A DNA stretch of 64,000 bases from Pogonophryne albipinna (taxonomy: Eukaryota > Chordata > Actinopteri > Perciformes > Artedidraconidae): contig CM053256.1 in NCBI GenBank assembly GCA_028583405.1, forward strand, positions 4,535,995-4,599,994, in the 5' to 3' direction. Below, in pieces: positions 25,461 through 62,033 of this stretch. The stretch's first letter is position 1. Each line of letters starts with the position of its first letter. A model generated the notes under the pieces. The model was given only the letters and a program-made list of their open reading frames with translations, was not told the origin of the DNA and did no database searches. A program made the position numbers and the translations under genes.

Positions 25461-25466
25461 ATTATA

Positions 25467-28366: not shown

Positions 28367-28462
28367 CACACAAGTTTCAGGGGAGAGATTTGACTGGGGA
28401 GCAGAAATAACTGGTCTGGTGACCCCAGAGGTAAAGTAGATCTAAGTACTTGCAACTTTTGT

Positions 28463-29711: not shown

Positions 29712-29868
29712 TTTTAATTAGAATTGCTCTTCCAAAAGTGTTCTCAGGGTGTGTGTTCAGCTGGCAGAGGTGTTCACAGACATCTTCAACAGGTCCCTGC
29801 TGCAGTCTGAGTCCCTGAATGTTTCGAACACTCCACCATCGTTCCTGTCCCCCAAAAGACTAAAACCA
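29712..29868 (+). mobile_element. LINE RT fragment in relic C, truncated at a deletion junction
   Basis: Matches 3044-3197 (ttgctcttccaaaagtgttc through aaaccacca) and then jumps at about 29868 to sequence matching 18119, upstream of the N-CARD exon. This marks one end of the large deletion that removed PYD and FIIND exons from relic C. Confidence 0.75.
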
Positions 29869-38190: not shown

Positions 38191-38284
38191 TACATGACTA
38201 TTTCCACATTGTAATCGTTTAAGACGCTTTTTTTTCTTGAGGCACAATGTACGTTTAGTCTGAAAAATGATTTCTCCACAACAT

Positions 38285-38550
38285 TCACTTCTTTCCCTTT
38301 AGCTCATCAATGAGACATTTCTCCTCTTTCTCAAGGATTCTGTAGAAGACGTCTTTGCCATGAGGCCCTGCTGATTTCAGGGGACCACTGAAGAGTTCCC
38401 TCATCTGCTTCTGAGTGGTCCGGATTTCCATGATTTCATCATAAATCGATGGAGTGATGACTTTTTCATCAAGGAGCTGATCCAAAATGTCTGCAACGCA
38501 GTTCACTCTCTTGATCAGCTTGGTTCTATGTTCATCCACAAAGTGCTTAC
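38285..38550 (-). CDS. C-terminal CARD exon with stop, copy B
   Basis: 266 nt, phase 1 in, 88 codons including TGA. Starts [15 protein letters not shown], includes [40 protein letters not shown] and [20 protein letters not shown]. Complete CARD ending five residues after the last helix. In NLRP1/CARD8 this domain on the released UPA-CARD piece nucleates caspase-1 activation, directly or through ASC. Intact in this copy. Confidence 0.9.
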
Positions 38551-41500: not shown

Positions 41501-44500
41501 TGTCCCCAAAAAGACTAAAACCACCAGCCTCAATGACTACCGCCCAGTAGCACTCACCTCCATCATCATGAAGTGCTTTGAGCGGTTAATCAAAACATTC
41601 ATCACCTCCTCCCTCCCTGACTCTCTGGACCCCCTGCAGTTTGCCTACAGAGCAAACAGGTCTGCAGACGCCATCGCCCTCACCATCCACACTGCCCTCT
41701 CACACCTCGACCAGAGGAACACATATGTGAGAATGCTGTTCACTGACAACAGTTCAGCTTTCAACACCATCGTGTCCTCCAAGCTGATCATCAAGCTCAG
41801 AGACCCATGACTGTCATCGGCCTGATCACCGACGGCAACGAGACGTGTACAGAGAGGAGGTCGAAAACCTGATATCTTGGTGCCAGGATGAAAACCTCAA
41901 TCTCAACATCACTAAGGACCTGACATGGACTCATCACACAAACAAAAAAGAGAAATCTCCAACGAGACGTTCTGGGGCAGCATAGACAGGTATTTTCTGT
42001 GTTAGAGTGTTACTCGCTACAGGGTGTACTTTGAGGGTTTGTGACTTTGCAGACCGTTTACATGCATAAAAACCTTCATAACACACAAGAGGACGGGTAA
42101 TAACCGGAAAAGCATGACATGGGACCTTTAAGATTCTTATAAATGTAATGGAAATATCATTTCAATACCTGTAAAAACAAACGTTTTAATATGCAGCATC
42201 TTACCATCTGAATCACCAGAGTTTCGTAACTCAACTGAAATACAGAACATACAAAATATGGATTTTTCATATTTTGTTTTTATGTATTGTATTCTCATCA
42301 ACACATTAAATAAAGATCATTTTTATTATGTTTGGACATACAATGGGATTGGGCTCTCTTTAATTTACTATAATCGTTTTTGCATAACACCGTAGTAAAT
42401 TAAAAGGTAAAAGAATGATTTTTTTTTCATATGATGTACAGTAAGTAATAATGCCCACTGACCTTTCAGAATCGTGTGGCTCCACCGTGTTTTGCGTTTC
42501 CCTTTGTTAAGTTGTGAGAGAGTAAGGTTGAAGTCACTGATTGGATTCTTAAAGTGCACGTCAAAGAATATTGAGCGTTGGCTTTGGCTACCATTGCTGA
42601 GGGTTATTTTCTATGTGAGAAGAAAAAAAAGAAATAACAGAGAGAGATGACAAAACCAGATGTGAGGGTCAATATTGAATAAACTAAAGATTTCAGTAGT
42701 TTAAAAAAAAGAAGTGAATTAGTCACATGGCGAACAGAAAAAATGATGCTGGTTATTTCAAATGAAGAAGTCCTTATTGTTGAACTTAAGTTTGATGGTA
42801 TATACATGCTGGTTTTTGACTAAGTCCACAATTTGATCTGCCACTGGTAAATTACAAGCATCAAATTTCTCACATTCGCTCCCCTAGGTTAACACATTTT
42901 GGCTACTGAACCATAGCTAATTCTTCTGTCTGTATGGCATATCTTGTTATCATGTCTTTATTAAACAAGGACCATGCATAACAATACATTAATTACAAAA
43001 AGGGAAGAGATGATGTATGGTAGAATTTAGCTATTAGCTAATATCCATCTGCAGTCCCTGGGTAGGTAAATACATAAAAATCAACAAAAGAGCAGATCTA
43101 TAAAATACAAATACCAGCATATTTTACGCTCAGCTCAAAACATATTCCAATGCCTGGTGGTTGTAAATTAAAAAGCTGATGGTGCTAAAATAATCTACCT
43201 CAGTGGGATGTTTAAGTATAGTGGAGATCTTGAGGTTCTGACTATTTGTGAGTTCCCTTGATATTGATATATTAAACAGTAGCCATTTTGACGTCTCACT
43301 GCAAGGTTGACACAGGTATTATTTACAAATAAAATAAATTAATAACTGTCCCATTTTAATTAGTGTCACATCCATTCTAGTGTAGTCAGCAATACCAGGA
43401 ACCTGGCCCAATTTACTGGCAATTCAAACTGTACCTCTGGGCAAATCTCGGCCGTTATGCCTGCTGTGAGGTTGAAATCTTGGTGCATTCTCAGGTCCTT
43501 GTTTGGGCGTGGCTTTCGGATGAATTTGTATTCTTATTGTCCTTGTCGATGGTCTGGAAAAAAAATTCAATCTAAGCACAACCCTACTTCAAGTTTACAG
43601 TAAGAAACATCTGTGTTTAAAATGCATTCATGAAACAATAAGGTTTTAACAACAGAGTATTAGGGTCAGTATCTAGAAAAATAAATATTTCTTTCAGATT
43701 TTGTTATTTCAGAATGGCCACTGAGGAAAAGGTCATGATAAAAAGTCATACCTTCGAGACAAAATGTCTTTAACGTTTTGAGAGTAACTGAATAAGTGAG
43801 ATCAAACCAAGCTGCAGCGTCATCGACAATTACCACCGAATAGTTCTGAGGCACGTCTGTGATTGTATTTAACATTTATAGCAACATGTGAAACAGGTAA
43901 ATTGGCTTAAATGCTTTGCTGTTTGAAGCAGCTCTCCATGGAGCAGAACTTTCCCTCGAGTGATAATCTAAAAACGAAATGATATCTCGCTTAATAAGTA
44001 TTATCAGGGAAACACATTATAACACCATGATAAGTATAAGGTTATATGTCAACCATGTATCGATCATTGAGAGTTCATGTTGCAAAACATAGCTTCTAGC
44101 TTTGGGCAGAGCTAGCTCTGTTTGTAGGGACTTGGCTTGGCGACCAGAGGGTTGCAGGTTCAAGTCCCTGAATGGATCAAGTGAAGAGTGGGGACTGATA
44201 CTTTGTGAGATGGCAGTTGGTCTCCTGGTCATGCTGAGGTAACCTTGAGCAAGGCACCAGAGCCCCACACTGGGCACTGTAATATAGCAGTCAACTGCTT
44301 CTTGTTTAAGGATGGGTTAAAGGCAGAGACTAGAATTCACTGTGTGCGGTGCTGTGTTCCTGTTTGACGATTGGAAGTTGATTGTATTAAAATCCTTCCA
44401 TTTCCATAACACACAATAGGACCCTTTTAAGATAATATTTCCTTTAAATGTTTTCCCTCACTTATGACTTTACTCTCATAACAGGACTACTTTAAGAATT

Positions 44501-47500
44501 AAAGATGTTATTTTCACAATTTAGCCCAAATACTCCATTGTAGGTTTTGATTTCATTTTGAATGTGTGACAGTAAGATATTCAGTAACCTCTTTAAGAGC
44601 AGGATCGAGCGGGGTCAGGTAAACATGAAGAACGGTGCAGGATGCGTAGGCTTTTGAATAAATCAACACGTTACAGTGTATTTTTACTGGAAAGCCCATT
44701 TTCATCAGGACCGTTCTTGGAGAGAAAACTGGTTCACACAGCTTGACATGGGACGATGTGACTTCAGACACTTTTTCCACAACATCTCCACAGTCATCTA
44801 TGTGCAGGACTGCAAACTTTTGCAATATTTTAGGGATGTCATCTGCATAGTATAAAGCACAATAAATGAATGTGAATAAAAAACAATTGCATTGATTATT
44901 TTGATATTTTCCTCCATGATCACTTACCTATGCAGATCCAGTGTGGCAGGTACACTTCAAATAACTTCCCAGAAATCACTGTGATGTCTATCAGGGGACC
45001 TGCTAGCATGTATTTCATCATTTCCATCCTCTTCATGGGTTCCTCCGAAGAGCCAAAACTGGTACTTAAAGCTGACCTTGTCCTGACAGACCCAGCGCAA
45101 GCCTGAGACACTGCATTCAAAGTTTCCCGCTTCAGACTTTAGGCTAAAATATAATGAAAAAAATACTGAGTTTGCATTTGGTACAAAATGTAGCATTAAA
45201 ACTATTGGGAATATATTGTATAGATCTTAGTGTTCTCTCTGTGAAGAAATCCCAAGACCGAACCTTCAGTGTTTACTATATTTCCAGTTTGATAATATGC
45301 AGTATTTAGGAAACTATTTGTACCTGTAAGTTGATGCCTCATCTTCATCTGTACTGTTCACCTCAGGTTCAAGTTTAGTCCAGCCACTGGAGTCCTTCTG
45401 CAGAGGCAATCATTTTTAAAAAGAAGTGAAGACTGTGACTTTTGGAAAAAATCACATAAATGATCAACAAATAACTGAATACATAAATAAAATGTAAGGA
45501 ATTACCGTAATCTTTCCGATACCCTCAAGATCCAAGCTTCTTGAAGCCCCTTGTGAAGAAACAAGACTTAGTATAAAATGATGTTACTATGAAAAATTAA
45601 ATCTATGCCCTTTAGCACTATGTGCTACATTAGCGATGATGTAGCAATAGTGCAAATTTGTTATGCAGGAAATACTGGTGAGTGATGTCTTTTGGAAGCT
45701 TGAAATAATACAATAAGAATACACTTGGCTTTTCACACCTTTGGATCCTAAAGTGATGTTTGACAACTTTTGCTCCAGACCATAATCTTCTTTCATCTTC
45801 TTTAAAATCTCCATTGTCACCTCCATAGACTGTTGGCCGTAGATCTCCACCATCAGATCCACAATCTCAACTCTCCCTGCCGTCTCTAATCTCTGACTTG
45901 AGATTCTTTGGAGGCCACGCTTGAATTTCTCGAGCTCTCCATGACTTAAATCTTCCAGTGTTTCCAGAAGCTTCTCCTCCAGTGATGCCACGCTTACTTC
46001 CTAATGGATTCAATGTCATCAGAGGGAATTCAATGTAATATCTCCACTAGTTGAAAACATTTTCCACCTCTTTACTGTCAACATTTGCAAACTGTAAAAC
46101 CTAAATGAGAGCCGTGTTGTGTAAAGTGTGTCTGATGTGATATGACTCACTTCCTTCGGTGGTTTGGACGGATGTTTATCTAAGGAGAAAACCAAGGAAA
46201 AGCCTCATCATCACTGATTCAAAATCAGATTATCAACGACTTTTTAAGGAATGTTTTTTTCTTTTCTTCATTACTGCACTTGAGTTACGAAGAATCATAC
46301 GTTTTTAATAATCGGGAGCCGTGTTCAACAACAGGAAAACGATATAAGCTATATAACTGCATCTATATAACACTTTCATTTACAAACTCCCACATAACTC
46401 GTGCAGTATAATCAAAGTCTCATTCATTCAGGCACTAGCTCACTACTTCTGATGTGTGGAGAAGAGTAACGCATTTCAAAGTATGAGACTGTTATTGCAA
46501 AAGTGTTTCAAACAGTGAGGTTGTTTTGGTATAGTTGTGCTGTTATTAAACACGCCCCCCCATTTACTTAAATTCATAGAAATGTCTACATTGTTTGATT
46601 TGTTACTCACAGTGGAGTAATTAATTAAAGTTAATTATTCCTTAAAATTAAAAAAATAAAATACAAAAGCATTGCAACAAATACAAAACTCATGACTATT
46701 AACTCTTCTGTGTGATGTAGCAGTTTTAGTTTTCTTTCTCTTACCTTTGAGTCTTAAGATAGTCTCTGTAATCTCTCCACTAGATCAGTTCTGTCCATAT
46801 CCATTAAAACCTCCCTGGTCACCTCCACAGACTGCAGGACCACAGGTCTCCACCATCTGATCCACCACCTGGGATGCACTTGCTGTCCAATTGGGATATC
46901 CATGAAAGGTGCATGATATGCTCTTCTGGAAGAATGTGAACTGCAGCAACCGCTGAAATCTGTAGAGCTCATCATCACTCAAATCCTTAAGAGTTTTCAA
47001 AAGGATTGGTTTCACTGCTGCAATTTGTGCCTGACGGATGTGTAAGAAAAGGTGTTATTTCTCTATGGAAATAAATATGACTTTGTTTTCATTTTATCAG
47101 TCAGTGTTTCAGACAAGAGGATTTTCTATAATTTTGACAAGATCTCTCAAGTCAAAGAAACACTAACATCTGTTCTATTAAATATGTTTAGCTTTTTTCT
47201 TCACGAATGCAAACTTTGATATGAGTGTTCAGACTTCAGTCTGCTAATCTGATCATAACATCAGTGGAAGATCCTTTTGACAGAAGAGATCAACCTTAAA
47301 AACGGTTTGGTTTGCATCATCATTGTTAAGTTCAAGATGGATATGGTTAACAACTTGCATCTATTGAATGCAAGCTGTGATGTGTAAAGTCAGACTCACT
47401 CCCTCGGACTGTGCAGGTCGATGTTCATCCACAGAGTACATCTCTGAAGAGAGAAAATAAAGTGAATGTCTAACACACAAGATCCCAGCAACTAAACTAA

Positions 47501-48185
47501 ACTACTTCAACTTAAAACATTCTGTTTCTTGTTGAGACTATGTGTCGGTGGCCTTTTATGCTATTTTAATTATTTCTTTAATGTTTGTATAGATTCCTGT
47601 CCCATGTTTTTTTAATAATTCATATTGTTGATGAATACAGATTTTTTTTTTACTGAAATATAAAATGTATGTGATGTGAGGGTTTTCTTTCTTCTTTGTC
47701 CTACCTTTGAGTTCTAAGTTTGTCAACCTCTGCCTCAGAATCATTCCTGTTAATGTCCTTCAAAACCTCCATGGTTATCTCTACACACTGTTGGCCGAAG
47801 ATCTCCAATCATCTGTTTCAATGTTTGAGATCTGCCTGCTAAGGATCTCAAAATCCATGAAAAATATCTTGGCTTCTTCTTGGAGACAATTAAATCCAGG
47901 GACTGCATGAATTTCTCTAAATCCTCATTTCTCAAGTCATTCAGAGTTTTCGAAAAGCAGATGTTTAACAGCTGCCATTGTTGCTACCTGAAATAATCAA
48001 TACATTCATTAGACATGTGGATATTCCTCTTGGACAATTACAAATGTGTCTATTTGCATCTCTTCACTGTTAATGTTTTCCCTTTAACTCTTATAAACTG
48101 GTTAGTTGGTGTTGGGTTTGACAGACAGACAGACAGACAGACAGACGGACAGACGGACGGACAGGACAGACAGACAGACAGAACG

Positions 48186-48220
<35 letters not shown>

Positions 48221-48243
48221 CAGACAGACAGACGGACAGACAT

Positions 48244-48274
<31 letters not shown>

Positions 48275-48304
48275 GGACAGACGGACGGACAGACAGACAG
48301 ACGG

Positions 48305-48374
<70 letters not shown>

Positions 48375-48396
48375 TGACAGACAGACAGACAGACAG

Positions 48397-48431
<35 letters not shown>

Positions 48432-48442
48432 GACAGACGGGC

Positions 48443-48513
<71 letters not shown>

Positions 48514-49693
48514 TCATCATAGATAAGTCAATCATGTGTTTTGGTCATATCTTTATCTGTTGAAGGAAAGGTGTGCTGTAGAAAGTCAGACAGATGTGAC
48601 ATTACTTACTTTCTGGATCACTGCAGGTCGCTGTGCCTCTGAGTGTTTCTCTGAAGAGAAAAGAGGTGGAGATAAACCAACTCAATTCATTTTACCTTCT
48701 CCCAAAATATTAATCATTGTTTTGATTAGTCATAAAAACATATTTTGTACACTAGGATATAAATACATTATAAATCTAAGCTTCATCTATATTTATAACT
48801 TAAAAATAAGTATGCAGAGCTCATTAAATGCGATAAATCTGAAATAATCATCATTGGACCTAAAAAGCTCACCACATCTATCCAAAACTTCACCACCCTC
48901 AACATGGACGGCTTCCCAGTTCAAACCTCTCCTCACATCCGTAACCTAGGCATCATATTTGACCAAACCCTCTCCTTCAACCAATACATCAAACTGATCA
49001 CCAAGAAAGCCTTCTTCCACCTCAAAAACATATCCCGTCTACGTCCATCCCTCTCCCCCATTGCTGCAGAAACCCTCATCCACACCTTCATCACCTCCCG
49101 TCTGGACTATTGCAACAGCCTCCTCTATGGTTCACCTGCAAAAATCCTCAACAAACTCCAATACATTCAGAACTCCGCCACCCGTCTACTCACCCACACC
49201 CGAATCCGTGAACACATCACCCCCGTCCTCATCAAGCTCCACTGGCTCTCCATTCCCTCAGATAATTCAGTACAAAATTCCTCCTAATGACATACAAAGC
49301 CCTCCATAACCTGGCCCCCATCCTACATTACTGACCTCCTCCACAGACACACTCCCACCCACTCCCTCTGCTCTGTAACTGCTAACCTCCTGCCCCCCCC
49401 CCCCCCCCCACCCGGACCAACCTCAAGTCCTGGGCGACAGAGCCCTCTCTGTTGCTGCTCCCACCCTCTGGAACTCACTACCCCAACCATCAGAGACTCT
49501 TCCTCCCTCATAGAATAAAAAAAAAATCACTCAAAACCCACCTGTTCAACTGCATTCAACCACTGACCACACCCCCCCCCCCTTATTTTCTCTTATTGTT
49601 TTTCTCTTTTAATATATATATATACATATATATAATTTTTTTATTCTCGGTCAAAGCATCTTTGAGTTTTTAGAAAAGCGCTATATAAGTCTC

Positions 49694-49749
<56 letters not shown>

Positions 49750-52700
49750 TAGGATAAACAGGTTGATGATTTAAAGATGTTTGTTTCTTATTCGTCTTAC
49801 TTTTGGGTCCTGAGCTGCTTTGTGACAGCCTCTGCACCAGATCAGTCCTGTTCATCTTCTCAAAAGCCTCAGGGATCATCTCCAGCAGTCTGTGCTGGCT
49901 GTGATATTGCACCAAATAAAACACCATGTCCTGCCTGTCTCTCATCATTATCCACCTTGTTGAGATGTCTAGGGTAGCCTTTGTCAGCGAGAATTTGACT
50001 CAGGACCCTCTTAAAACTGTGTAAATCCTGGTCACTCAAATCTTTCAGTGTTTCCAGAAGCAGCTCTATGACAGACACCGTCGTTTCCACCTGGTAAAAT
50101 CAAAGGAGATGTTAGGAGAATGGCAGCCAAGCGTCCTCCCTGCTGGACAATATGTCCCACCCCCTCCAGGGACACCCTGTCCTCACTGTGCAGCTCCTTC
50201 AGCGACAGGCTGCTGCACCCCAGCTGTCTCACGGGAGAGATTACCGCAGGTCCTTCCTTCCTGCAGCGGTCAGACTATACAACCAGCACAGCCCCTAGTA
50301 GACCCACCCCCTCCCTACACACACCACAACACAGACTATATCACCCCTTTCTGCTAAATAACCAATCAACTACGTGCAATATGTGGCTATATGTGCAATA
50401 TATATATGCCATTAATAACTGGGTAATTTATTACCCTGGCTGCTAAATCCTTTAAAACCGTTACAAGGTGTGTTTTTTGGCAGGGAAACTGGTTCAGGGG
50501 AGTGGCTGTACCCGTAGGATAGAAAAGGGGGAAGTGATGTCTGACTCAGAGGTCGCCGCGGCTGTGGAGAAGAACGTGTTGCCCACATTCTGTTACTGAG
50601 TTTAGGCTAGTTAGCTAGCAGGTTTATTGTTTTGGGTGCAGTCACTTTTGCTCCACTTGCTGTTCAAATAAAGGTTGAAAGAAAAAGTCAATCTGTTTAC
50701 CAGTTGCTGTTTCATATGGGTGTTGAGAGATGCATCCATAGATTTAGTCCCTAATTTTGCTCTCAAAGTGCACCAGATGCATTTAATGCATTTAACTTCA
50801 ACATTTAAAAAAAAATCTTCCCGGGGGAGCATGAGGTCCACACCCCGTTAAATTGTCTCACCCCCATTGAGGATGCTTCCTACTGTACGCCCATGTTTTA
50901 TTCCATGCGTCAAGCCAGGCAAATTGGGTCCAAATGTTATTGCATCAATGATCTGTTAACATTAAATTGAATAAATATATGCTGTAACTATTTTGCTCTT
51001 GGCAACTCAAGGGCTCAGGTAATGTGATTACTATATGAATAATGGTCCAAAATAACATAAAATGCATAGGGTTTTTGTTAAGAAACATACTTTTCGTCGC
51101 CGGCCGGCCGATACATGCCGCGCATTAAGTGGGCCTGTCTGTCAATTAATCCCCGGGCCACTTTTTCCTCCCCAGGTCCGCCCCTGGCTGTAACGATGCA
51201 AATTTTCCCCTCTGTGGGACTAATAAAGGTATTCTGATTCTGAATGGGGCAAAAGAGCAATTTCTCAGCCGGGATGATTACAGATCATTTTTTGCTTACA
51301 TCTTGTCAGTTTCAGTGTTTTAAAAGAGTGGATGTGGTAAGAAAACATCAGCCATGTCACGCACAACGTATCAGTACACTTTATATTGTTCATCCAATTC
51401 ATCACAGAACCATTTGCTTTTTGTATAAACGGCGTGTTTGATTCATGACTTTATTTGACCTCCTGGGTAACTCTTTAAAAGGCTGTGGTAGAAGAATTAC
51501 TTCAGGCGTCTTGATTTAACAACTGAGTGGCAGTTTAACCAGTTGGCATCTTTTTATTTGGTATAAAAGAGTAAGAATCACTATCTTTATTTTTGCATCA
51601 ATATTGTGAATTTCTCTTTCTGAATATTAGAAAAACAACTCATGAAGAATGTGCTATAATTTCCCCTCCAGACAGACGTAACACAAATTATTAAACACAA
51701 TTCATAAATAACATTGATGCCTAGAACATACAGCTATGTGTTCCTAACTTGGCGTGATCAGATTATTTCTGTAAGAAAACTATCCGAGACCAGAAAATGT
51801 TTGTATCAATAATGTTCAGGGTGGAGATTATTTTCAGTCTTCTAAATCTACTGAGTCAAAGCTGCACTGGGTGGAGTCAGAGTGATGGGACATTACTCAC
51901 ACTCTGGATCAGTGAAGGAAGCGGTTCCTCTGAGGAGAAAAATGACACACGACGGATTCAAAATCACACTATGGACAACTGGTCAGATTGTGTTACTTTT
52001 GAAAAAAACAAACGTAATATGAATAATTCAACTAAATAACGCTCAAATATGGTTCATGCTGGCATCATTCAAATCAATCACAAAGAGTGAGAGGTTTGAC
52101 ACCATATTATTAACACCCATTAAAGGAACACCGCACCCACAAAATGACCTTTTAATAGAAATGACTCCTGCCTTGTTACCTTTAATTCTTCAAGAAACAA
52201 AACAGACAAAAGTATTGATTAATAGGGAGCTATGTTTAACAACAGAACAACTTTATTAACTGTATAACTAAAACTATATAAAACATCTATTTACAAACTC
52301 CCACACAACTCGTGCAGTAGAATCCAAGTCTCATTTATCCTGGCACAATTATAATATAATAATGATTTATTTTGTAATAGTCACACTCGATTACGCCGAT
52401 TTTCTTGTTGCCCAAGCTGGTCGACACCTTTTTTATCAGGACAAATGCTACATTAATGTATTAAATCGATGTTAATCCATGCGTGTAGATGTGGAATTAA
52501 CGGACGTGACGTTGTGCGATTGAGTTGCCAGGCAACAGCTTCGGTTCATGTTAATTTACAAAACTCTTCAACTACAACCGTAGTATATTTAAAACATGTT
52601 AGAAGGCCTCACAAATACTTTAATGCAAATTAAAATGTAAATGTGAAGGAATGTGATACACGTATAACAAAATACATCGGTGATAAACGAAACTGGAAAC

Positions 52701-55700
52701 TGACGTAGGCAAGATCCTCAGCTACGATGATTGGATGGTTTAGCCGCAATGCACGCTGGGACTTGGTCTTTTATGTGATGTGAAATCTGAAAACGTTTTT
52801 TAAAAATAAAATAATACTTTATTCCGAGTGTGCTTGCTTTTCTCTTTGAAAGTCATCACAGAACGGCATTGTAATACACGGTTCGGCTGCATTAAGTATT
52901 ACATATCTGCCGTAGTTCTCTATATATAGAGCCCTGCTGAGAAGACTTCTAGACAAACAGGAGAACTGCCGCCAAAACTGAAACGTGACGTGGATCATAA
53001 ATATATAAGCAATTAAACAACATCTTACATTTCTTTTCACACAATACGTCTCCTTGCAGTCATCAACACTAATTCGGCTGACTTTTATATTTGATCCAAT
53101 GGTAGATAGGCTGTATTTACACCATAACGGTGCAGAGCTGATAGAAAGGGACACCTGGTGGTTGAAGAACGTTATTGAATTGTATTATTTCATATAGATA
53201 TTAATAGGAGGATGTGCAAAACAGACAAACTAATAAGGCTTAATTTAAACATTAAAGAGTACTTTAGGTTAAGGTCTTCTTTTGAATAAGAAACAAGCTT
53301 TGGGAGAAGAAGAATATGGAGGGATGAAACCCTCTTTATTGGTCACACATGCAGAGCACACAGCACACACAGTGACATTTGTATCTATCTATCTACAGAT
53401 AAATATTAAGCCTGACAAAGTACTTACACGTCTAATATATGCTTTCCTGCAATGTTAACTATGGTTAAGCACTTATTTTAACTGATATATACATAATGTA
53501 TTATACTCTTATAAGATGTATGTAGATAGTATAAGAAATGTGCAGAATATGACAGTTTAATGGTGGAGGTATACACACATATTGATAGATGTCTTGTAAT
53601 GCACTGTTTGAGGAACCTGTGACCCAAGTTTTTCATTCATTGCATAACTACACCGTAGTGTGTATAATATAATGTGTCAATAAACCTTAGCTTAGAAAAT
53701 CTTGAAATCTTGAAAGGGGTGTGCAAACTAGTCATTATATACAGTCTTTAATTAACTATAGTAGAGAATAACGAGTGATGAATATACTTTATAGGGATCC
53801 TATTAATATCTAATAATAAAATAATAAAATTCAATAACGTTCTTCAACCACCAGGTGTCCCTTTCTATCAGCTGTGCACCGTTATGGTGTAAATACAGCC
53901 TGTCTACGAATTGGATCAAATATAAAAGTCAGCCGACTTAGTGTTGATACTGCAAGGAGACATATTGTGTGAAAATAAATCTAAGATGTTGTTTAATTGC
54001 TTTATATATTTATGATCCACGTCACGTTTTCAGTTTTGGCTGGAAGTTCTCCTGTTTGTCTAGAAGTCTTCTCAGCAGGCTCTATGAATAGAGAACTACG
54101 GCAGATATGTAATACTTAATGCAGCCGAACCGTGTATTACAATGCCGTTATGTGATGACTTTCAAAGAGAAAAGCAAGCACACTCGGAATAAAGTATTAT
54201 TTTATTTTTAAAAAACGTTTTCAGATTTCACATCACATAAACACCAAATCCCAGCATGCATTCGGCTAAACCATCCAATCATCGAGCTGAGGATCTTGCC
54301 TACGTCAGTTTCCGGTTTCGTTTATCACCGATGTATTTTGTTATACACACATTCCTTCACATTTACATTTTAACTTGCATTAAAGTATTTTGTGAGGCCT
54401 TCTAACATGTTTTTAAATATAACTACGGTTGTAGTTGAAGAGTTTGTAAAATGAACATGAACCGAAGCTGTTGCCTGGCAACTCAATCTTACAACGTCAC
54501 GTCCGTTAATTCCACATCCATACCTATGATCCACACGCATGGATTAACATTGATTTAATACATTAATGTAGCCTTTGTTTCTGCTAAAAAAAGGTGTCGA
54601 CCAGATGGGGCAACAACCAAAATCGGCGTAATCGAGTGTGACTATTACAAAATAAATCATTACGTCGGGGTAGCATTTGCTTGGCATTTCCGGTTATTTC
54701 TCCACTGGTTAACAATACCGTGTACCGTTTTGAAGGGACGAAATCGTGACATCTTCATGTCTCTCAGCATGGTAAATCGTCACATGTTCACGTCTTGCCG
54801 TGATACCGGGTTGGTTATAAACACGCCCCCCATTTACTTCAATTCATAAAGACTTTCTCCATTATTTTAATTGTGACACACAGTGGAGGCATGCAATAAA
54901 ACAGATGTCTTCAAGAATTAAGAGAACTCAGGGTGAGCAATTGTAATACAGAACAACTGGTCATTTTTATCGGTGAACTATTCTTAAAAAAATCAAACAC
55001 AAAAGCATTGCAACAAATACAAAACTCATAACTATGAATTCTAAAATATATGTATAACACATCCATGATACCACGGATGAGTGTGTACTGTTCTCTTACC
55101 TTTGAGTCTTAAGATAGTCTCTGATAATCTCTCCACTAGATCAGTTCCTGTTCAGGTCCATTAAAACTCCCTGGTCCACCTCCACACGACTGCGGACCCA
55201 CAGGTCTCCACCATCCGATCCACTAGCTGGGATGCACTTTGCTGTCCGATAGGCATATCCATGAAAGATGCTCGATATGCTCTTCTGGAAGAATGTGAAC
55301 TGCAGATACCACGGAAATCTGTAGAGTCATGATCACTCAAATCCTTAAGAGTTTTCAAAAGGATTGGTTTCACTGCTGCAATTTGTGCCTGACGGATGTG
55401 TAAGAAAAGGTGTTATTTCTCTATGGAAATAAATATGACTTTGTTTTTCATTTTATAGTTCAGTGTTTCAGACAGAGGATTTTCTATAATTTTGACAAGA
55501 TCTCTCAAGTCAAAGAAACACTAACATCTGTTCTATTAAATATGGTTTTATCTTTTTTCTTCACGAATGCAAACTTTGATATGAGTGTTCAGACTTTCAG
55601 TCTGCTAATCTGATCAGTAACATCAGTGGAAGATCCTTTTGACAGAAGAGATCAACCTTTAAACGGTTTTGGTTGCATCATCATTGTTAAGTTCAAGATG

Positions 55701-56489
55701 GATATGGTTAACAACTTGCATCTATTGAATGCAAGCTGTGATGTGTAAAGTCAGACTCACTCCCTCGGACTGTGCAGGTCGATGTTCATCCACAGAGTAC
55801 ATCTCTGAAGAGAGAAAATAAAGTGAATGTCTAACACACAAGATCCCAGCAACTAAACTAAACTACTTCAACTTAAAACATTCTGTTTTCTTGTTGAGAC
55901 TATGTGTCGGTGGCCTTTTATGCTATTTTAATTATTTCTTTTAATGTTTGTATAGATTCCTGTCCCATGTTTTTTTAATAATTCATATTGTTGATGACTA
56001 CAGATTTTTTTTTTACTGAAATATAAAATGTATGTGATGTGAGGGTTTTCTCTTTCTCTTTGTCCTACCTTTGAGTTCTGAGCTGGTCTTTGTCAACCTC
56101 TGCCTCAGATCAGTCCTGTTAATGGTCCTTCAAAAACCTCCATGGTTATCTCTACACACTGTTGGCCGAAGATCTCCATCATCTGTTTCACTGTTGAGAT
56201 CTGCCTTCTGAGGATCTCAAATCCATGGAAAAATATCTTGGCTTCTTCTTGGAGACAATTACATCCAGGGACTGCTTGAATTTCTCTAGATCCTCGTTTC
56301 TCAACGTCATTCAGAGTTTCCAAAAGCAGATGTTTAACAGCTGCCATTGTTGCTACCTGAAATAATCAATACATTCATTAGACATGTGTATATTTCCTCT
56401 TGGACAATTACAAATGTGTCTATTTGCATCTCTTCACTGTTAATGTTTTCCCTTTAACTCTTATAAACTGGTTAGTTGGTGTTGGGTTT

Positions 56490-56564
<75 letters not shown>

Positions 56565-56608
56565 GGACAGACGGGCAGACAGACAGACAGACAGACAGAC
56601 AGACGGGC

Positions 56609-56644
<36 letters not shown>

Positions 56645-56656
56645 GGGCAGACGGGC

Positions 56657-56691
<35 letters not shown>

Positions 56692-57864
56692 TCATCATAG
56701 ATAAGTCAATCATGTTTTGGTCATATCTTTATCTGTTGAAGGAAAGGTGTGCTGTAGAAAGTCAGACAGATGTGACATTACTTACTTTCTGGATCACTGC
56801 AGGTCGCTGTGCCTCTGAGTGTTTCTCTGAAGAGAAAAGAGGTGGAGATAAACCAACTCAATTCATTTTACCTTCTCCCAAAATATTAATCATTGTTTTG
56901 ATTAGTCATAAAACATATTTTGTACACTAGGATATAAATACATTATAAATCTAAGCTTCATCTATATTTATAACTTAAAAATAAGTATGCAGAGCTCATT
57001 AAATGCGATAAATCTGAAATAATCATCATTGGACCTAAAAAGCTCACCACATCTATCCAAAACTTCACCACCCTCAACATGGACGGCTTCCCAGTTCAAA
57101 CCTCTCCTCACATCCGTAACCTAGGCATCATATTTGACCAAACCCTCTCCTTCAACCAATACATCAAACTGATCACCAAGAAAGCCTTCTTCCACCTCAA
57201 AAACATATCCCGTCTACGTCCATCCCTCTCCCCCATTGCTGCAGAAACCCTCATCCACACCTTCATCACCTCCCGTCTGGACTATTGCAACAGCCTCCTC
57301 TATGGTTCACCTGCAAAAATCCTCAACAAACTCCAATACATTCAGAACTCCGCCACCCGTCTACTCACCCACACCCGAATCCGTGAACACATCACCCCCG
57401 TCCTCATCAAGCTCCACTGGCTCCCCATCCCCCAGATAATTCAGTACAAAATCCTCCTAATGACATACAAAGCCCTCCATAACCTGGCCCCATCCTACAT
57501 TACTGACCTCCTCCACAGACACACTCCCACCCACTCCCTCTGCTCTGTAACTGCTAACCTCCTGCCCCCCCCCCCCCCCCCCACCCGGACCAACCTCAAG
57601 TCCTGGGCGACAGAGCCCTCTCTGTTGCTGCTCCCACCCTCTGGAACTCACTACCCCAACCATCAGAGACTCTTCCTCCCTCATAGAATAAAAAAAAATC
57701 ACTCAAAACTCACCTGTTCAACTGCATTCAACCACTGACCACACCCCCCCCCCCTTATTTTCTCTTATTGTTTTTCTCTTTTAATATATATATATACATA
57801 TATATAATTTTTTATTCTCGGTCAAAGCATCTTTGAGTTTTTAGAAAAGCGCTATATAAGTCTC

Positions 57865-57911
<47 letters not shown>

Positions 57912-60900
57912 TAGGATAAACAGGTTTGATGATTTAAAGATGTTTGTTTCTTATTCGTCTCACTTTTGGGTCCTGAGCTGCTTTGTGACAGCCTCTGCAC
58001 CAGATCAGTCCTGTTCATCTTCTCAAAAGCCTCAGGGATCATCTCCAGCAGTCTGTGCTGGCTGTGATCTTGCACCAAATAAAACACCATGTCCTGCCTG
58101 TCTCTCATCATTAGCCAGCTTGGTGAGATGTCTGGGTAGTCTTTGTCAGGGAGAATTTGACTCAGGACCCTCTTAAAACTGTGTAAATCCTGGTCACTCA
58201 AATCTTTCAGTGTTTCCAGAAGCAGCTCTATGACAGACACCGTCGTTTCCACCTGGTAAAATCAAAGGAGATGTTAGGAGAATGGCAGCCAAGCTGTCCT
58301 CCCTGCTGGACAATATGTCCCACCCCCTCCAGGACACCCTGTCCTCACTGTGCAGCTCCTTCAGCGACAGGCTGCTGCACCCCAGCTGTCTCACGGAGAG
58401 ATACCGCAGGTCCTTCCTTCCTGCAGCGGTCAGACTATACAACCAGCACAGCCCCTAGTAGACCCACCCCCCTCCCCTACACACACCACAACACAGGCTA
58501 TATCACCCCTTTCTGCTAAATACCAATCAACTACGTGCAATATGTGCTATATGTGCAATATATATATGCCGTTAATAACTGTGTAATTTATACCTGGCTG
58601 CTAAATCCTTAAAACCGTTACAAGGTGTGTTTTTTGCAGGGAAACTGGGTTCAGGGGGAGTGGCTGTACCCGTAGGATAGAAAAGGGGGAAGTGATGTCT
58701 GACTCAGAGGTCGCGCGGCTGTGGAGAAGAACGTGTTGCCCACATTCTGTTACTGAGTTTAGGCTAGTTAGCTAGCAGGTTTATTGTTTTGGGTGCAGTC
58801 ACTTTTGCCTCCACTTGCTGTTCAAATAAAGGTTGAAAGAAAAAGTAAATCTGTTTACAGTTCTGTTTCATATGGGTGTTGAGAGATGCATCCATAGATT
58901 TAGTCCCTAATTTTGCTCTCAAAGTGCACCAGATGCATTTAACTTCAACATTTAAAAAAAAATCTTCCCGGGGGAGCATGAGGTCCACACCCCGTTAAAT
59001 TGTCTCACCCACATTGAGGATGCTTCCTACTGTACGCCCATGTTTTATTCCATGCGTCAAGCCAGGCAAATTGGGTCCAAATGTTATTGCATCAATGATC
59101 TGTTAACATTAAATTGAATAAATATATGCTGTAACTATTTTGCTCTTGGCAACTCAAGGGCTCAGGTAATGTGATTACTATGAATAATGGTCCAAAATAA
59201 CATAAAATGCATAGGGTTTTTGTTAAGAAACATACTTTGTCGCCGGCCGGCCGATACATGCCGCGCATTAAGTGGGCCTGTCTGTCAATTAATCCCCGGG
59301 CCACTTTTTCCTCCCAGACCGCCCCTGGCTGTAACGATGCAAATTTCCCCTCTGTGGGACTAATAAAGGTATTCTGATTCTGAATGGGGCAAAAGAGCAA
59401 TTTCTCAGCCGGGATGATTACAGATCATTTTTTGCTTACATCTTGTCAGTTTCAGTGTTTTAAAAGAGTGGATGTGGTAAGAAAACATCAGCCATGTCAC
59501 GCACAACGTATCAGTACACTTTATATTGTTCATCCAATTCATCACAAAACCATTTTTTTATTAATTGGGTTTGAATCATGACTTTATTTGACCTCCTAGG
59601 TAACTCTTTCAAAGGCTGTGGTAGAAAAACTGCGATAAGCCTCTTGATTTACAACAGAGTGGCTGTTTAACCAGTTTCATCTTTTTTTTGTATTTGAAAA
59701 AATACTATATAGATAACATTAACAGTTTTCTTAATCTACTGAGTCAAAGCTGCAATGTGTGAAATTGATGGGACATTACTCACGCTCTGGATCAGAGAAG
59801 GAAGCGGTTCCTCTGAGGATAAAAAAAAAAAGGAAAAGGCCTTTTCATTTATTTCATCCCAATGTGACACACTGACCTCCTCAACAGTGACAGTATAATT
59901 ATTTATATATCCACTTAAAGATATTCTAACACTGTTCAATGGTTTAAGATACATTTGGTATCGGAATATACATAAACGATATTTTTATGAAATAGAAATG
60001 TGTATTTTCACATATTTCTGTCTTTTTTCTCTTACCTTTGGTTCCTGAGCTGATGTCTGACAATCTCTGCACCAGATCAGTCCTGTTCATCGTCTTTAAA
60101 ACCGTTTTGGTCATATTCACACACTTTCCGCTGAACGTCTTCACCATCAGATCCACTGTTTTATCTGTGTTTGCCGCTTTGAGTCGACCCCTTAGGATCA
60201 GTGGGAAACTTTCCTCTAATTCAATGAGTGACTTGAATTGGTTAAGCTCATCTGAACTCAAATCATTCAATGATTCAAGAAGTATCTTCTGAGCCATCAT
60301 GCTTTGTACCTGTAAAGTTTAAAGTAGATATTTTAGAGTGTATGCAGGATAGGATGTCGGTTATGTGTGTGATTCACATCCAAGATCGGAGACTGAGTCT
60401 CTTCTTATTTCTATCACCAAGATTAACTTTTAGATTGTATATTCAAAACTCGATCTACTGTATTGCGGTTGTATGCCTCCACAAAAAGTGGCAGTTTACA
60501 TCCATGGCGATCCAAAATGTCATATCTTTATCATTAATCATTTTAATCCCATGGCATTTTTCCACCAAATTCAAAATCAGTTTATTTTTGTACTCAAGTG
60601 GATGTTTGTCCCAAATCTAAATAAATAGTTATTTGGTTAAGGAAATCCCATTCTTCCACACAGGGCCCAATGGGTCAGTGGATGATTTGAAATGTTGTCA
60701 ATCATTTTAAATCATGTTTGAAAATATGTTGAAAATAATATCATGTTACAGAATATTGTTTCTCAGTGAAGGATTTCCTCGTCGATTTCAGAAACATTTA
60801 CCAGATCAAGGTGAGTTAAGACAACGTATGTTGTTTTAAATGTTTGGCTTAGAGTCATTAATATTTTACTCTCTATTTCATACACCTATTGCATCTCAAA

Positions 60901-62033
60901 AGCAGTGATTATATGAGCAGCACACCATATGATATCCAAACTTTCATTACAATTGTCACGGAGGTGATCTCTGGGCCCATAGATCTCGGCCTCAATTACG
61001 GGTTGTATAGCTTCATTGTTGTTGATTGTGTTCACCTGGTGCCCTGTGTTGTCTCCTCCCCCCTCACCTGTGTCTTGTTGGTTGATTAGTCTGTGGGTAT
61101 TTAGGCTCTGTGTTTCCTGTTTGTGTGTGGGAGATCCTTGTTGCTGGTGACTGTGTTCACATGAGACAGTAAGATTGAGGCTGTGTCATGTACCACAAGG
61201 AGTAATAAATGCCCACACCGGGTTATATTTGAACTCTCTGCCTCTGCCTCCTTGCATGGTCGGACCGCTCAACGGTCAGTCTCACAACAATCCTTTTCAA
61301 AACTAAATATGTACTCACCTCCATGTCTTTCTTATTCTTCTTATATTTCTCAGACTCATCAGCAAGGTCATCGAGAGATCTGACTCATGTGTTCTCAGCA
61401 GTTTATAGAATATCTCTTTTCCTCCAGGTCCACAGACTCTCAAAGGCCCACTTAGGAGAGCCCTCATCTTCTCCCGAGGGCCATGGAGGGATAGGATTTC
61501 CTCATAATGTTCTCTATTGATAACTTTATATGAGAACAGTCCATCCAGAATTGGTTCAATGTTTTTTACTCTCTGGACTAGTGCTAAATTATGGTTATCC
61601 ACAAATAGCTCTGAGGAAAGAAAAGGCAAAGTGGTACACACAATATATTTAATAAAAAGTGGTAAAACCTCATTCATCTAATATTACAAAACTGGAAAAT
61701 TACCTTTTACTCTGAATGAATTACTTCTAAGAAACTGAGGAGCACATCTCTGGTAAATACAAGTTTAATGTGGTGATTCTGTATGATTCTTGTGTAAAAT
61801 TAAGTTTACAGATCCGGGGTCCGGTAAAAACAACCCAATAACCAAACTACCTGATTAGTCGACAATATGCTATTGAGTAAGTTGAGTGAAGAATTTCCTA
61901 AATGATAAAACAGAAGGAAATACGTTTTCCAGTCAGATTCTGCTTTTAAACTCGGCTGTTGTAGCCAACCTTAACTCAAACTAACAGACAGTGTACATGC
62001 TGTAATACCTGTGGACCTACCTTCCTCCATCAT
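38285..62033 (-). CDS. Gene copy B: CARD-PYD(8)-FIIND-CARD protein (exon span)
   Basis: Exons right to left: first exon 62021-62033, N-CARD 61319-61610, PYD-1 60036, PYD-2 57964, PYD-3 56069, PYD-4 55100, then a second series PYD-2 49801, PYD-3 47705, PYD-4 46745, and PYD-5 45739, FIIND (45397 to 42463), short exons and C-CARD with stop at 38285. The segment 46600-51960 repeats 55000-59830, so three PYD cassettes are doubled. Frameshifts relative to copy A occur in the N-CARD, in most of the doubled PYDs, in ZU5 (45053) and in UPA (43530). The gene is complete in layout but not as a clean reading frame; some of this may be consensus error. Predicted intact form about 1,300 residues, cytosolic. 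Confidence 0.7.
38773..39610. mobile_element. Non-autonomous hAT nested in Tc1 (copy B)
   Basis: Same ends and 8-bp flanks (agtgtaag/attgtaag) as 446-1284. Shared position shows that it predates the A/B duplication. Confidence 0.75.
39855..40109 (+). pseudogene. Tc1 transposase N-terminal fragment (copy B)
   Basis: 84 codons like 1529-1783, one residue different near the start ([11 protein letters not shown]). Helix-turn-helix only, no catalytic core. Confidence 0.85.
40605..40822. mobile_element. MITE-like element (copy B)
   Basis: Same as 2279-2496 with the same inverted ends. Confidence 0.4.
41154..41198 (-). CDS. FIIND-CARD linker exon, copy B
   Basis: 45 nt, phase 1 in and out, [15 protein letters not shown]; identical to copy A. 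Confidence 0.7.
41364..41966 (+). mobile_element. LINE RT fragment (copy B intron)
   Basis: Duplicate of 3038-3640: [23 protein letters not shown] and the same early stop. Confidence 0.75.
42205..42234 (-). CDS. 30-nt exon after UPA, copy B
   Basis: Same as 3879-3908 (ELRNSGDSD), phase 1 in and out. Confidence 0.6.
42463..42610 (-). CDS. FIIND UPA C-terminal exon, copy B
   Basis: 148 nt, phase 0 in and phase 1 out. [20 protein letters not shown] and [16 protein letters not shown]. Differs from copy A at TRWSHT for PQWSHK. Open. Confidence 0.7.
43435..43553 (-). pseudogene. FIIND UPA middle exon, copy B (2-bp deletion)
   Basis: 119 nt against 121 in copy A; two bases are missing in the run at about 43530. 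The [13 protein letters not shown] stretch is still present but the upstream frame now meets a TAA when spliced at ttttccag. Either a real lesion or a consensus error. Confidence 0.65.
44090..44320 (+). repeat. tRNA-derived SINE (copy B intron)
   Basis: Match of 5765-5990; B box GGTTCAAGTCC at 44157-44167. Confidence 0.55.
44589..44842 (-). CDS. FIIND ZU5/UPA junction exon, copy B (intact)
   Basis: 254 nt, phase 1 in. Carries the [11 protein letters not shown] cleavage motif, [17 protein letters not shown] and then [15 protein letters not shown] in one frame, without the extra G of copy A. Most likely donor gttact, phase 0. Confidence 0.8.
44928..45143 (-). pseudogene. FIIND ZU5 exon, copy B (1-bp insertion)
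   Basis: 216 nt against 215 in copy A: GAGCC replaces GAGC near 45053, so the frame [20 protein letters not shown] ends in a shift, while the second part ([27 protein letters not shown]) is read in another frame. All motifs present. Confidence 0.75.
45324..45397 (-). CDS. FIIND N-terminal exon, copy B
   Basis: 74 nt, identical coding to 6998-7071 (WTKLEPEVN, acidic tail), phase 0 in and phase 2 out. Confidence 0.7.
45506..45549 (-). CDS. Linker exon PYD-5/FIIND, copy B
   Basis: 44 nt, phase 1 in and phase 0 out; [15 protein letters not shown]. Confidence 0.6.
45739..46000 (-). CDS. PYD-5 exon, copy B
   Basis: 262 nt, open, phases 0/1. Same domain as 7411-7672, with V to S next to the exon start ([10 protein letters not shown]). 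Single copy in gene B, not part of the doubled segment. Confidence 0.85.
46151..46179 (-). CDS. Linker exon PYD-4/PYD-5, copy B
   Basis: 29 nt, [10 protein letters not shown], phases 1/0. Confidence 0.6.
46745..47030 (-). pseudogene. PYD-4 exon, copy B first unit (frame-disrupted)
   Basis: 286 nt, so the total length fits the phase rule, but one extra base (gactgcagg) and one missing base (ctctgtaat) shift the second half. Pieces [20 protein letters not shown] and [19 protein letters not shown] are in different frames. Stop in frame near 46785. Confidence 0.65.
47400..47443 (-). CDS. Linker exon PYD-3/PYD-4, copy B first unit
   Basis: 44 nt, [15 protein letters not shown], phases 1/0, same as copy A. 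Confidence 0.6.
47705..47987 (-). pseudogene. PYD-3 exon, copy B first unit (three insertions)
   Basis: 283 nt against 280: single extra bases near 47740, 47807 and 47950 relative to copy A. Domain text ([31 protein letters not shown]) remains. The net length keeps phase, but local frames are wrong. Confidence 0.65.
48118..48513. repeat. (GACA)n microsatellite, expanded
   Basis: About 395 bp of gaca/gacg units, twice as long as the tracts at 9790 and 56488 in the same intron. Repeat-encoded frames (DRQT, LSVC) are not genes. Confidence 0.95.
48610..48650 (-). CDS. Linker exon PYD-2/PYD-3, copy B first unit
   Basis: 41 nt, [14 protein letters not shown], phases 1/0. Confidence 0.6.
48812..49746 (+). 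mobile_element. L2-like LINE 3' fragment (copy B first unit)
   Basis: As 10290-11217; open from 48904 ([31 protein letters not shown]), but shifted after LHWLSIPS by an inserted base near 49256. The (ATT)n tail is longer. Confidence 0.85.
49801..50090 (-). pseudogene. PYD-2 exon, copy B first unit (1-bp insertion)
   Basis: 290 nt against 289: an extra G near 49973 (AGGGTAGCC) splits the exon into [20 protein letters not shown] and, in another frame, [20 protein letters not shown] and [12 protein letters not shown]. Confidence 0.65.
50105..51242 (+). mobile_element. LINE 3' fragment (copy B first unit, indel-rich)
   Basis: As 11583-12695, but with many one-base gains and losses relative to the three other copies; the short ORF end is broken. 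Tail GGGACTAATAAAGGTATTCT kept. Confidence 0.6.
51901..51929 (-). CDS. Linker exon PYD-1/PYD-2 type, copy B first unit
   Basis: 29 nt, [10 protein letters not shown] with silent differences, phases 1/0. In this unit the exon to its right is PYD-4 (55100-55388), not PYD-1, so the doubled segment joins PYD-4 to this linker; phases still match. Confidence 0.6.
52360..54662. repeat. Large inverted repeat (foldback) with 850-bp arms
   Basis: Left arm 52360-53209 is the reverse complement of right arm 53797-54662, with scattered differences; spacer 53210-53796. Outer ends read TAATGATTTATTTTGTAATA and its complement. Inserted in the intron between linker 51901 and PYD-4 55100, where copy A has simple sequence (about 8110-8210). 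The spacer has a LINE-like tail (CAATAAACCTTAGCTTAG). See separate finding for sites within the arms. Confidence 0.85.
52815..53154 (-). other. Unrecognised open frame in left arm, possibly two exons
   Basis: A 111-codon minus-strand frame with a AATAAA just after its stop (near 52815). A donor-like gtaaga after YCVKRN (about 53030) and an acceptor-like tctcagcag before [14 protein letters not shown] would remove the middle and keep the frame end [13 protein letters not shown]. The right arm has the same sequence, but the donor GT is changed. No family recognised. Confidence 0.3.
55100..55388 (-). pseudogene. PYD-4 exon, copy B second unit (disrupted)
   Basis: 289 nt with several indels against copy A (gttcctgttcagg, ccacacgactgcgg, gtagagtcatg). 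[16 protein letters not shown] at the start and VDRMVETCG later in shifted frames. Splice sites kept. Confidence 0.6.
55761..55804 (-). CDS. Linker exon PYD-3/PYD-4, copy B second unit
   Basis: 44 nt, [15 protein letters not shown], phases 1/0. Confidence 0.6.
56069..56356 (-). pseudogene. PYD-3 exon, copy B second unit (disrupted)
   Basis: 288 nt against 280, with small insertions and deletions throughout. [11 protein letters not shown] and [19 protein letters not shown] recognisable in different frames. Near the donor the bases gagctggtctttg look like a PYD-1/PYD-2-type end (tcctgagctg), which may be gene conversion or error. Confidence 0.6.
56488..56690. repeat. (GACA)n microsatellite, second unit
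   Basis: About 200 bp of gaca with gacggg interruptions, same intron position as 9790 and 48118. Confidence 0.95.
56786..56826 (-). CDS. Linker exon PYD-2/PYD-3, copy B second unit
   Basis: 41 nt, [14 protein letters not shown], phases 1/0. Confidence 0.6.
56986..57909 (+). mobile_element. L2-like LINE 3' fragment (copy B second unit)
   Basis: As 10290-11217 and nearly identical to it; 219-codon C-terminal RT frame from 57079, shorter poly-C run, same (ATT)n tail. Confidence 0.85.
57964..58252 (-). CDS. PYD-2 exon, copy B second unit
   Basis: 289 nt, open, phases 0/1. [20 protein letters not shown], then the same atypical [18 protein letters not shown] middle and [11 protein letters not shown] end as copy A; differs at HSFKRVLSQ for YRFKMILSQ. 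Confidence 0.8.
58267..59382 (+). mobile_element. LINE 3' fragment (copy B second unit)
   Basis: As 11583-12695, nearly identical. Confidence 0.6.
59784..59812 (-). CDS. Linker exon PYD-1/PYD-2, copy B
   Basis: 29 nt, [10 protein letters not shown], phases 1/0. Confidence 0.65.
60036..60309 (-). CDS. PYD-1 exon, copy B
   Basis: 274 nt, open, coding identical to 13349-13622 and 16461-16734 as far as read: [20 protein letters not shown] and [13 protein letters not shown]. Phase 0 entry from the N-CARD exon. Confidence 0.85.
60955..61275 (+). repeat. LTR-like or non-autonomous repeat (copy B intron)
   Basis: Same as 17383-17700: TGTCACGGAGGTG start, GTTCACCTGG, AATAAATGCC. Its presence in both copies predates their duplication. 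Confidence 0.35.
61319..61610 (-). CDS. N-terminal CARD exon, copy B (1-bp deletion near end)
   Basis: 292 nt against 293. The CARD core [14 protein letters not shown] to [13 protein letters not shown] is intact; one A is missing at about 61374 (cgagagatc for cgagaagatc), so the lysine-rich tail is shifted and the exon would leave out of phase. Confidence 0.75.
62021..62033 (-). CDS. First coding exon, copy B
   Basis: ATGATGGAGGAAG then gtaggt. Copy A has ACGATGG, so B gains one more Met in frame. Splices to the CARD exon as in A. Confidence 0.65.

Follow-up and report, generated by a model that had tools for sequence, protein, structure and literature searches.

A tandem pair of CARD-PYD array-FIIND-CARD gene copies in an Antarctic plunderfish suggests a NACHT-less family of FIIND proteins in perch-like fishes

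The window analysed here is a 64,000-nucleotide stretch of the genome of Pogonophryne albipinna, an Antarctic plunderfish (Percomorphaceae, Notothenioidei), and it holds two tandem copies of one exon series on the minus strand (Table 1). Copy 2, read from 62033 downwards to the stop of its C-terminal CARD (C-CARD) at 38285, opens with a start exon (MMEE) and a CARD exon. Eight PYD exons come next, in the order A B C D B C D E, followed by a pre-FIIND exon and the two exons of ZU5, and the series closes with the UPA exons, small linkers and a second CARD exon. Copy 1, from position 1 to about 18460, aligns with it in blocks at 96-99% identity, has PYD exons A B C D E together with a second A adjoining a 1000-N gap (13653-14652), and leaves the window within its own C-CARD. 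The preliminary description had reported a minus-strand series of CARD, several PYD, FIIND and CARD exons with matching splice phases, present twice; Pfam and splice analysis confirm the series, and the block alignment confirms the two copies. The two flanks of the gap are repeats at 99.9% identity, and assembly probably duplicated the PYD-A exon of copy 1 here; the database model P0005 inherits the extra PYD-A.

Table 1. Exons of the two gene copies, in reading order from the start exon (Pfam was run on ten single frames of 38288-61677, within 19 window frames scanned overall; frames are given with their E-values)
Exon	Positions	Strand	Frame and phase	Evidence
Copy 2 start exon (MMEE)	62021-62033	-	phase 1 out	ATG and splice donor
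Copy 2 N-CARD	61319-61610	-		Pfam CARD 7.8e-14 (61318-61677), splice sites, lengths
Copy 2 PYD type A	60036-60309	-	open, phase 0 to 1	Pfam PYRIN 2.1e-16 (59947-60318), above curated cut-off
Copy 2 linker after A	59784-59812	-	phase 1 to 0	
Copy 2 PYD type B	57964-58252	-	open	Pfam PYRIN 2.7e-12 (57914-58261), above curated cut-off
Copy 2 linker after B	56786-56826	-		
Copy 2 PYD type C	56085-56356 (low end approximate)	-	frameshifted	alignment to copy 1
Copy 2 linker after C	55761-55804	-		
Copy 2 PYD type D	55100-55388	-	frameshifted	weak Pfam PYRIN 0.0053 (55164-55412), below cut-off
Copy 2 A-type linker preceding second B	51901-51929	-		motif match; same order in P0012
Copy 2 second PYD type B (B2)	49801-50090	-	frameshifted	
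Copy 2 second PYD type C (C2)	47705-47987	-	frameshifted	
Copy 2 second PYD type D (D2)	46745-47030	-	frameshifted	
Copy 2 PYD type E	45739-46000	-	open	Pfam PYRIN 2.6e-15 (45590-46000), above curated cut-off
Copy 2 pre-FIIND	45324-45397	-	phase 0 to 2	
Copy 2 ZU5 exon 1 (ZU5a)	44928-45143	-	one-base frameshift	Pfam FIIND 1.4e-10 (44923-45138)
Copy 2 ZU5 exon 2 and UPA start (ZU5b)	44589-44842	-	open	Pfam FIIND 1.8e-8 (44556-44927), UPA-FIIND 1.2e-5
Copy 2 UPA exon 2 (UPA2)	43435-43553	-	frameshifted	intact in P0011
Copy 2 UPA exon 3	42463-42610	-	open	
Copy 2 C-CARD, including stop	38285-38550	-		Pfam CARD 1.1e-14 (38288-38626)
Copy 1 start exon	18451-18460	-		
Copy 1 N-CARD	17744-18036	-	open	
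Copy 1 PYD type A	16461-16734	-		
Copy 1 second, near-identical PYD type A, beyond the N gap	13349-13622	-		
Copy 1 PYD type B	11272-11560	-	open	
Copy 1 PYD type C	9379-9658	-	open	
Copy 1 PYD type D	8418-8704	-	frameshifted	
Copy 1 PYD type E	7411-7672	-	open	
Copy 1 linker	7178-7221	-		
Copy 1 pre-FIIND	6998-7071	-		
Copy 1 ZU5a	6604-6818	-	open	
Copy 1 ZU5b	6264-6518	-	frameshifted	
Copy 1 UPA2	5110-5230	-	frameshifted	
Copy 1 UPA exon 3	4138-4285	-		
Copy 1 small linkers (three)	3879-3908, 2828-2872, 1924-1971	-		third as read in P0005
Copy 1 C-CARD, truncated by window end	1-223	-		

Between the two copies lie the two ends of a third, at 21252-22781 (the end of the C-CARD exon with the linker-exon region) and 29724-31185 (the start-exon region), its body being absent; 22800-29700, where the body would be expected, holds unrelated sequence, and the plus-strand frames of 212 aa (27321-27959) and 249 aa (28394-29143) within it gave no significant Pfam match. 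Immediately behind the stop of copy 2, a LINE-type retrotransposon occupies 35446-38298 on the minus strand with an open frame of 950 aa (Pfam RVT_1 1.1e-36, Exo_endo_phos 6.9e-8). Two frames within copy 2, 60889-61185 and 56108-56365, had no Pfam match; the first was considered as a coding linker exon and rejected, the N-CARD exon joining PYD-A directly in phase 0.

The exon ends carry splice consensus and have compatible phases. The start exon leaves in phase 1, the N-CARD exon enters in 1 and leaves in 0 (in copy 1 with an acceptor of 12.8 bits and a donor of 12.2 bits), the pre-FIIND exon runs from 0 to 2, ZU5a from 2 to 1 and ZU5b from 1 to 0, and the C-CARD exon enters in 1. Each PYD exon (0 to 1) has its own linker exon of 29-44 bases (1 to 0), and the pair forms a symmetric 0-0 module, whose duplication or skipping would therefore leave the frame intact. 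For UPA2, entry in phase 2 was rejected; the relative P0011 enters this exon in phase 0, and because of this we read it as frameshifted in both copies. P0005 (1047 aa) is the database model of copy 1, and P0055 (590 aa) covers part of copy 2. By Pfam, P0005 contains two CARDs, six PYRIN stretches, FIIND and UPA, and it agrees with the reconstructed exon chain except where the model steps around frameshifts. Its string, [CARD]AABCDE-ZU5-UPA-[CARD], fits the family definition of an N-CARD, a PYD array beginning with A, ZU5-UPA and a C-CARD.

Neither copy is open throughout. In copy 1 the frame is broken in PYD-D, ZU5b and UPA2. In copy 2 the broken exons are N-CARD, C, D, B2, C2, D2, ZU5a and UPA2, its N-CARD exon being one base shorter than that of copy 1 and losing frame near its end; UPA2 was judged against P0011. 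It is quite possible, if short of an even chance, that the window copies are pseudogenes, with working members of the family located elsewhere in the genome. The frameshifts in both copies point that way, as do the reduction of the third copy to two ends and the divergence between copies, which in two of three aligned stretches is higher in exons than in introns (1.75% versus 0.72%; 4.03% versus 0.93%; 0% of 595 bp versus 0.65%). The 1532 bp of equal-length exons, a count that omits N-CARD, C, D, ZU5a, ZU5b and UPA2 for their unequal lengths, hold 11 nonsynonymous and three synonymous changes and give no sign of constraint since the duplication. However, 56 of the 61 indels between the copies span at most two bases, one copy or the other has an open frame for every exon class apart from PYD-D and UPA2, and N-CARD and PYD-A with its linker carry zero substitutions in their 595 bp. 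The two copies of UPA2 deviate from P0011 in opposite directions, which counts for errors, and a composite drawn from the open exons of either copy, with PYD-D omitted, runs for 704 stop-free codons from the start to ZU5b. According to section 6 of PMC10716251, the assembly was built from PacBio Sequel reads with FALCON-Unzip and polished with short reads by Pilon, and an assembly of this kind can retain errors in repeated exons. Decayed copies at this locus can in any case be compatible with the best explanation for the family as a whole. The excess exon divergence lies mostly in PYD C and D, whose exons (8409-9667 versus 46648-48000 and 54984-56691) diverge far more than the adjacent introns; gene conversion, diversifying selection or polishing errors may be responsible.

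Relatives were collected with a joined-model protein search (best 120 of 270 matches) and an N-terminal search (best 120 of 190), which together gave 130 distinct listed proteins, all of them gene predictions and many of them isoforms of one gene; a search with a shorter query (best 120 of 196 matches) added 113, for a total set of 243. Domains in the 130 were marked with HMMs grown from the window exons and checked on subsets with Pfam. The strict order CARD-PYD+-ZU5-UPA-CARD occurs in 25 of the 130 listed proteins, with four to nine PYDs, from 13 species: Trematomus bernacchii, Gymnodraco acuticeps, P. albipinna itself, Epinephelus lanceolatus, E. moara, E. fuscoguttatus, Perca fluviatilis, Lates calcarifer, Acanthopagrus latus, A. 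schlegelii, Trachinotus anak, Zoarces viviparus and Cebidichthys violaceus. Classed more loosely, the 130 end in a CARD after PYD(n) (30) or CARD+PYD(n) (29), end in a PYD after PYD(n) (37) or CARD+PYD(n) (16), have no C-end domain (7 and 6), or are without ZU5 (4) or PYD (1). Those ending in UPA-PYD rather than UPA-CARD form a sister class (for example, P0013, P0037, P0067, P0096, P0106 and P0122), in which 43 of the 130 listed proteins show the strict order (CARD-)PYD+-ZU5-UPA-PYD, 13 of them with an N-CARD; by analogy, self-cleavage would here free a fragment carrying a PYD. Among the 113 further listed proteins, two have strict CARD-PYD+-ZU5-UPA-CARD, 16 (CARD-)PYD+-ZU5-UPA-PYD, nine ZU5-UPA-PYD, nine CARD-ZU5-UPA-CARD and 14 ZU5-UPA-CARD, the rest being other or partial architectures. 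Listed relatives with any PYD before ZU5 have 2-11 of them there. Some listed models depart from these orders, with the N-CARD missing, internal CARDs or two ZU5s, and databases name the relatives as uncharacterized, or as 'NLRP1 homolog' and similar. Related genes are thus present in many perch-like fishes, and they may represent an undescribed way of triggering inflammation.

By their sequence types, the PYDs are position-specific, in an order common across percomorph families. In a tree of 108 PYDs, taken from 14 proteins and the window and built by a quick method on 90 columns with many forks left open, 12 of the 15 PYDs in first position grouped in a single clade, type A, with support 98, the other three falling outside it; all five C-terminal PYDs fell in another clade (support 99) together with one 'last' PYD, and the middle PYDs fell into recurring types. 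Profiles built from the tree groups labelled the PYDs of the 130 listed proteins, with 29 of 963 labels ambiguous, and read the arrays of Perca and Lates as [CARD]ABFBCD-ZU5-UPA-[CARD] and those of Trematomus and Gymnodraco as [CARD]ABCDBCDE-ZU5-UPA-[CARD]. Among 111 listed proteins held out of profile building, isoforms included, type A opened the array in every one of 60 cases; B was followed by C 120 times, by F 79 times, by D 15 times and by E once; and the last PYD before ZU5 was of type E in 91 proteins, of type D in 15, of type C in four and of none in one. Type T stood after UPA 49 times and before ZU5 five times in the same set, and is not fully confined to the C-end.

The autoproteolytic triad of human NLRP1 is given in PMC9700037 as E1195, H1186 and S1213. 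At these columns, all 122 aligned ZU5s of listed relatives have His, 121 have Glu (the remaining one has Asp) and 121 have Phe-Ser, the one exception to Phe-Ser being P0005, whose model skips the stretch; ZU5b of copy 2 carries the His, the Glu and the Phe-Ser cleavage dyad. Across the 229 ZU5s of the 243 listed proteins, a pattern found Phe-Ser in 191, and inspection of the remaining 38 by eye added 33 with Phe-Ser, two with Phe-Thr and three models without the site. From these conserved catalytic residues we infer that the FIIND is self-cleaving. The window exons and P0005 have ZU5, then UPA, then a C-terminal CARD, the arrangement of the NLRP1/CARD8 class, with UPA2 frameshifted in both window copies. 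NLRP1 is the closest solved sequence to the FIIND-CARD part (8.8e-31) and the closest by fold to UPA. Both the N-CARD and the C-CARD match the CARD of ASC, and the zebrafish GBP-NLRP1-like CARD (4irl) matches the C-CARD. Of the structure models, only UPA, CARD and PYD matches were used, ZU5 having a pLDDT below 50 that made it unusable.

In the parts of PMC11760013 and PMC7857732 that treat NLRP1 and CARD8, the FIIND is described as cutting itself and the pieces as forming autoinhibitory complexes, with degradation of the N-terminal part of mouse NLRP1B freeing the active C-terminal part. The locus is probably a tandem cluster from a percomorph-fish family of NACHT-less FIIND proteins, one polypeptide per gene, that by analogy would act as NLRP1/CARD8-like self-cleaving sensors with an array of inflammasome adaptor domains, perhaps bait, as their regulatory half. 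Each product would unite an N-CARD, ordered PYDs (A-[B-C-D]n-E here), ZU5-UPA and a C-CARD. Following NLRP1 and CARD8, it would cut itself at Phe-Ser, the halves would stay associated, and the CARD/PYD-array half would be the regulatory side in place of NACHT-LRR; once that half was degraded, UPA-CARD would be freed, oligomerise and recruit ASC or a caspase. Such a release of UPA-CARD, or of UPA-PYD, seems the likeliest function.

The least sure step concerns the array itself. Zebrafish caspase-a and -b are described with PYD-like N-termini, and fish NLRP1 as ASC-dependent, in the passages of PMC9978379 on these proteins. As bait, the array would mimic the PYDs and CARDs present in ASC and in those fish caspases that bear a PYD, and any pathogen factor binding or destroying such domains would strike the array too and set off the sensor, with the UPA-PYD sister class feeding the PYD side of the same pathway. 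Because the array copies domains that a pathogen would attack, we tentatively rank bait first among explanations of the PYD array. Stated at its fullest, this becomes a percomorph self-guarding inflammasome, a proposal we regard as doubtful but worth setting out, in which an ordered array of decoys would form the sensor half (in listed relatives often with a CARD, and with as many as 11 position-specific PYDs), a pathogen factor would release the active fragment, and the outputs would be UPA-CARD and UPA-PYD, the latter acting on PYD-bearing caspases or ASC directly. The main rival to bait is a scaffold or regulator role, in which filament-forming surfaces of the PYD array itself would either nucleate ASC and PYD-bearing caspases directly or sequester them in the manner of PYD-only proteins, with self-cleavage only tuning the effect. 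We consider this unlikely: the number of PYDs per chain would give high valency, and the N-CARD is kept in those 13 of the 43 strict UPA-PYD relatives, but nearly all listed relatives retain both the cleavage site and the C-terminal module, and in NLRP1 and CARD8 the output lies on the side opposite to the one that the array occupies.

For the exon chain itself, the proposal of one CARD-PYD(n)-FIIND-CARD gene is supported by the phases, by P0005 and by strict-order gene models in at least 12 other species. Several small genes (PYD-only, CARD and FIIND-CARD) lying side by side and fused by gene finders would account for the in-frame ATGs within the PYD-A and PYD-C exons and for the shorter models with few or no PYDs, and the single-gene model is known here from predictions; yet the PYD exons sit between matching acceptors and donors in compatible phases, and the N-CARD is joined straight to a PYD, at a similar junction, in 46 of the 130 listed models. 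Because the position-specific PYD order is common to percomorph families, we read one ordered array in one gene; with the order shared by distant families, separate small genes are therefore hard to reconcile and in our view highly improbable.

The absence of NACHT-LRR that the preliminary description proposed also holds up: Pfam matched neither NACHT nor LRR, whether in the 19 frames scanned in the window or across the relatives (56 scans, 23 single and 33 as a set, some proteins in both). We rejected as scarcely credible an NLRP1 gene with overlooked NACHT-LRR exons: the FIIND-CARD part is most like NLRP1, some relatives bear that name in databases and copy 1 contains a gap, but copy 2 is gap-free and without NACHT, no scanned relative has one, and GxxxxGK[S/T] occurs in four of the 243 listed relatives, none of the four with a NACHT match.

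If the self-guarding arrangement is true, it would parallel in animals the plant receptors that carry integrated decoys. The family, with an ordered PYD array on the N-terminal side and, in many members, a PYD instead of the output CARD, would show the self-cleaving module to be a general release device that can be loaded with other baits and outputs. It would also explain many fish genes now named 'NLRP1 homolog', 'ASC' or 'uncharacterized', some of them in farmed species such as sea bream, grouper, barramundi and tuna, and it provides natural variants with which to examine what is sensed by the N-terminal half of NLRP1-type proteins.

Known FIIND sensors have either NACHT-LRR (NLRP1) or a short N-terminus (CARD8); compared with these, the family couples the established release module to a new regulatory side, and in the sister class the output is new as well. 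ASC (PYCARD) resembles it in having a PYD and a CARD within one chain, and the layout of the ASC gene resembles a PYD exon with its short linker exon; ASC, however, is an adaptor with a single PYD, a single CARD and no FIIND, whereas here there are several PYDs, ZU5-UPA and two CARDs. Zebrafish Gbp4 has a FIIND part. As described in part of PMC4932187, it likewise places a different N-terminal module before a similar C-terminus with a CARD at the end, the module being a GTPase in place of the CARD and PYD array. With human and rat NLRP1, the family shares the ZU5-UPA-CARD C-terminus and His, Glu and Phe-Ser at the autoproteolysis columns, but it has a CARD and a PYD array in place of NACHT and LRR; fish NLRP1, in the relevant passages of PMC9978379, is described with NACHT, LRR, FIIND and CARD and with no PYD. 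A full-text literature search, with most subscription journals and preprints outside its scope, returned no multi-PYD FIIND or FIIND-PYD protein, including in the parts consulted of PMC12436146, PMC9978379, PMC11508797 and PMC6988351. CARD8 is likewise a NACHT-less FIIND-CARD protein, and the fish 'CARD8-like' P0242 and P0243 have an N-CARD as well; neither CARD8 nor these fish models have PYDs, and in a tree of CARDs the C-CARDs of the fish models form their own distant clade. P0242, P0243, P0199, P0210 and P0236 are fish CARD-ZU5-UPA-CARD models without PYDs, some of them named CARD8-like.
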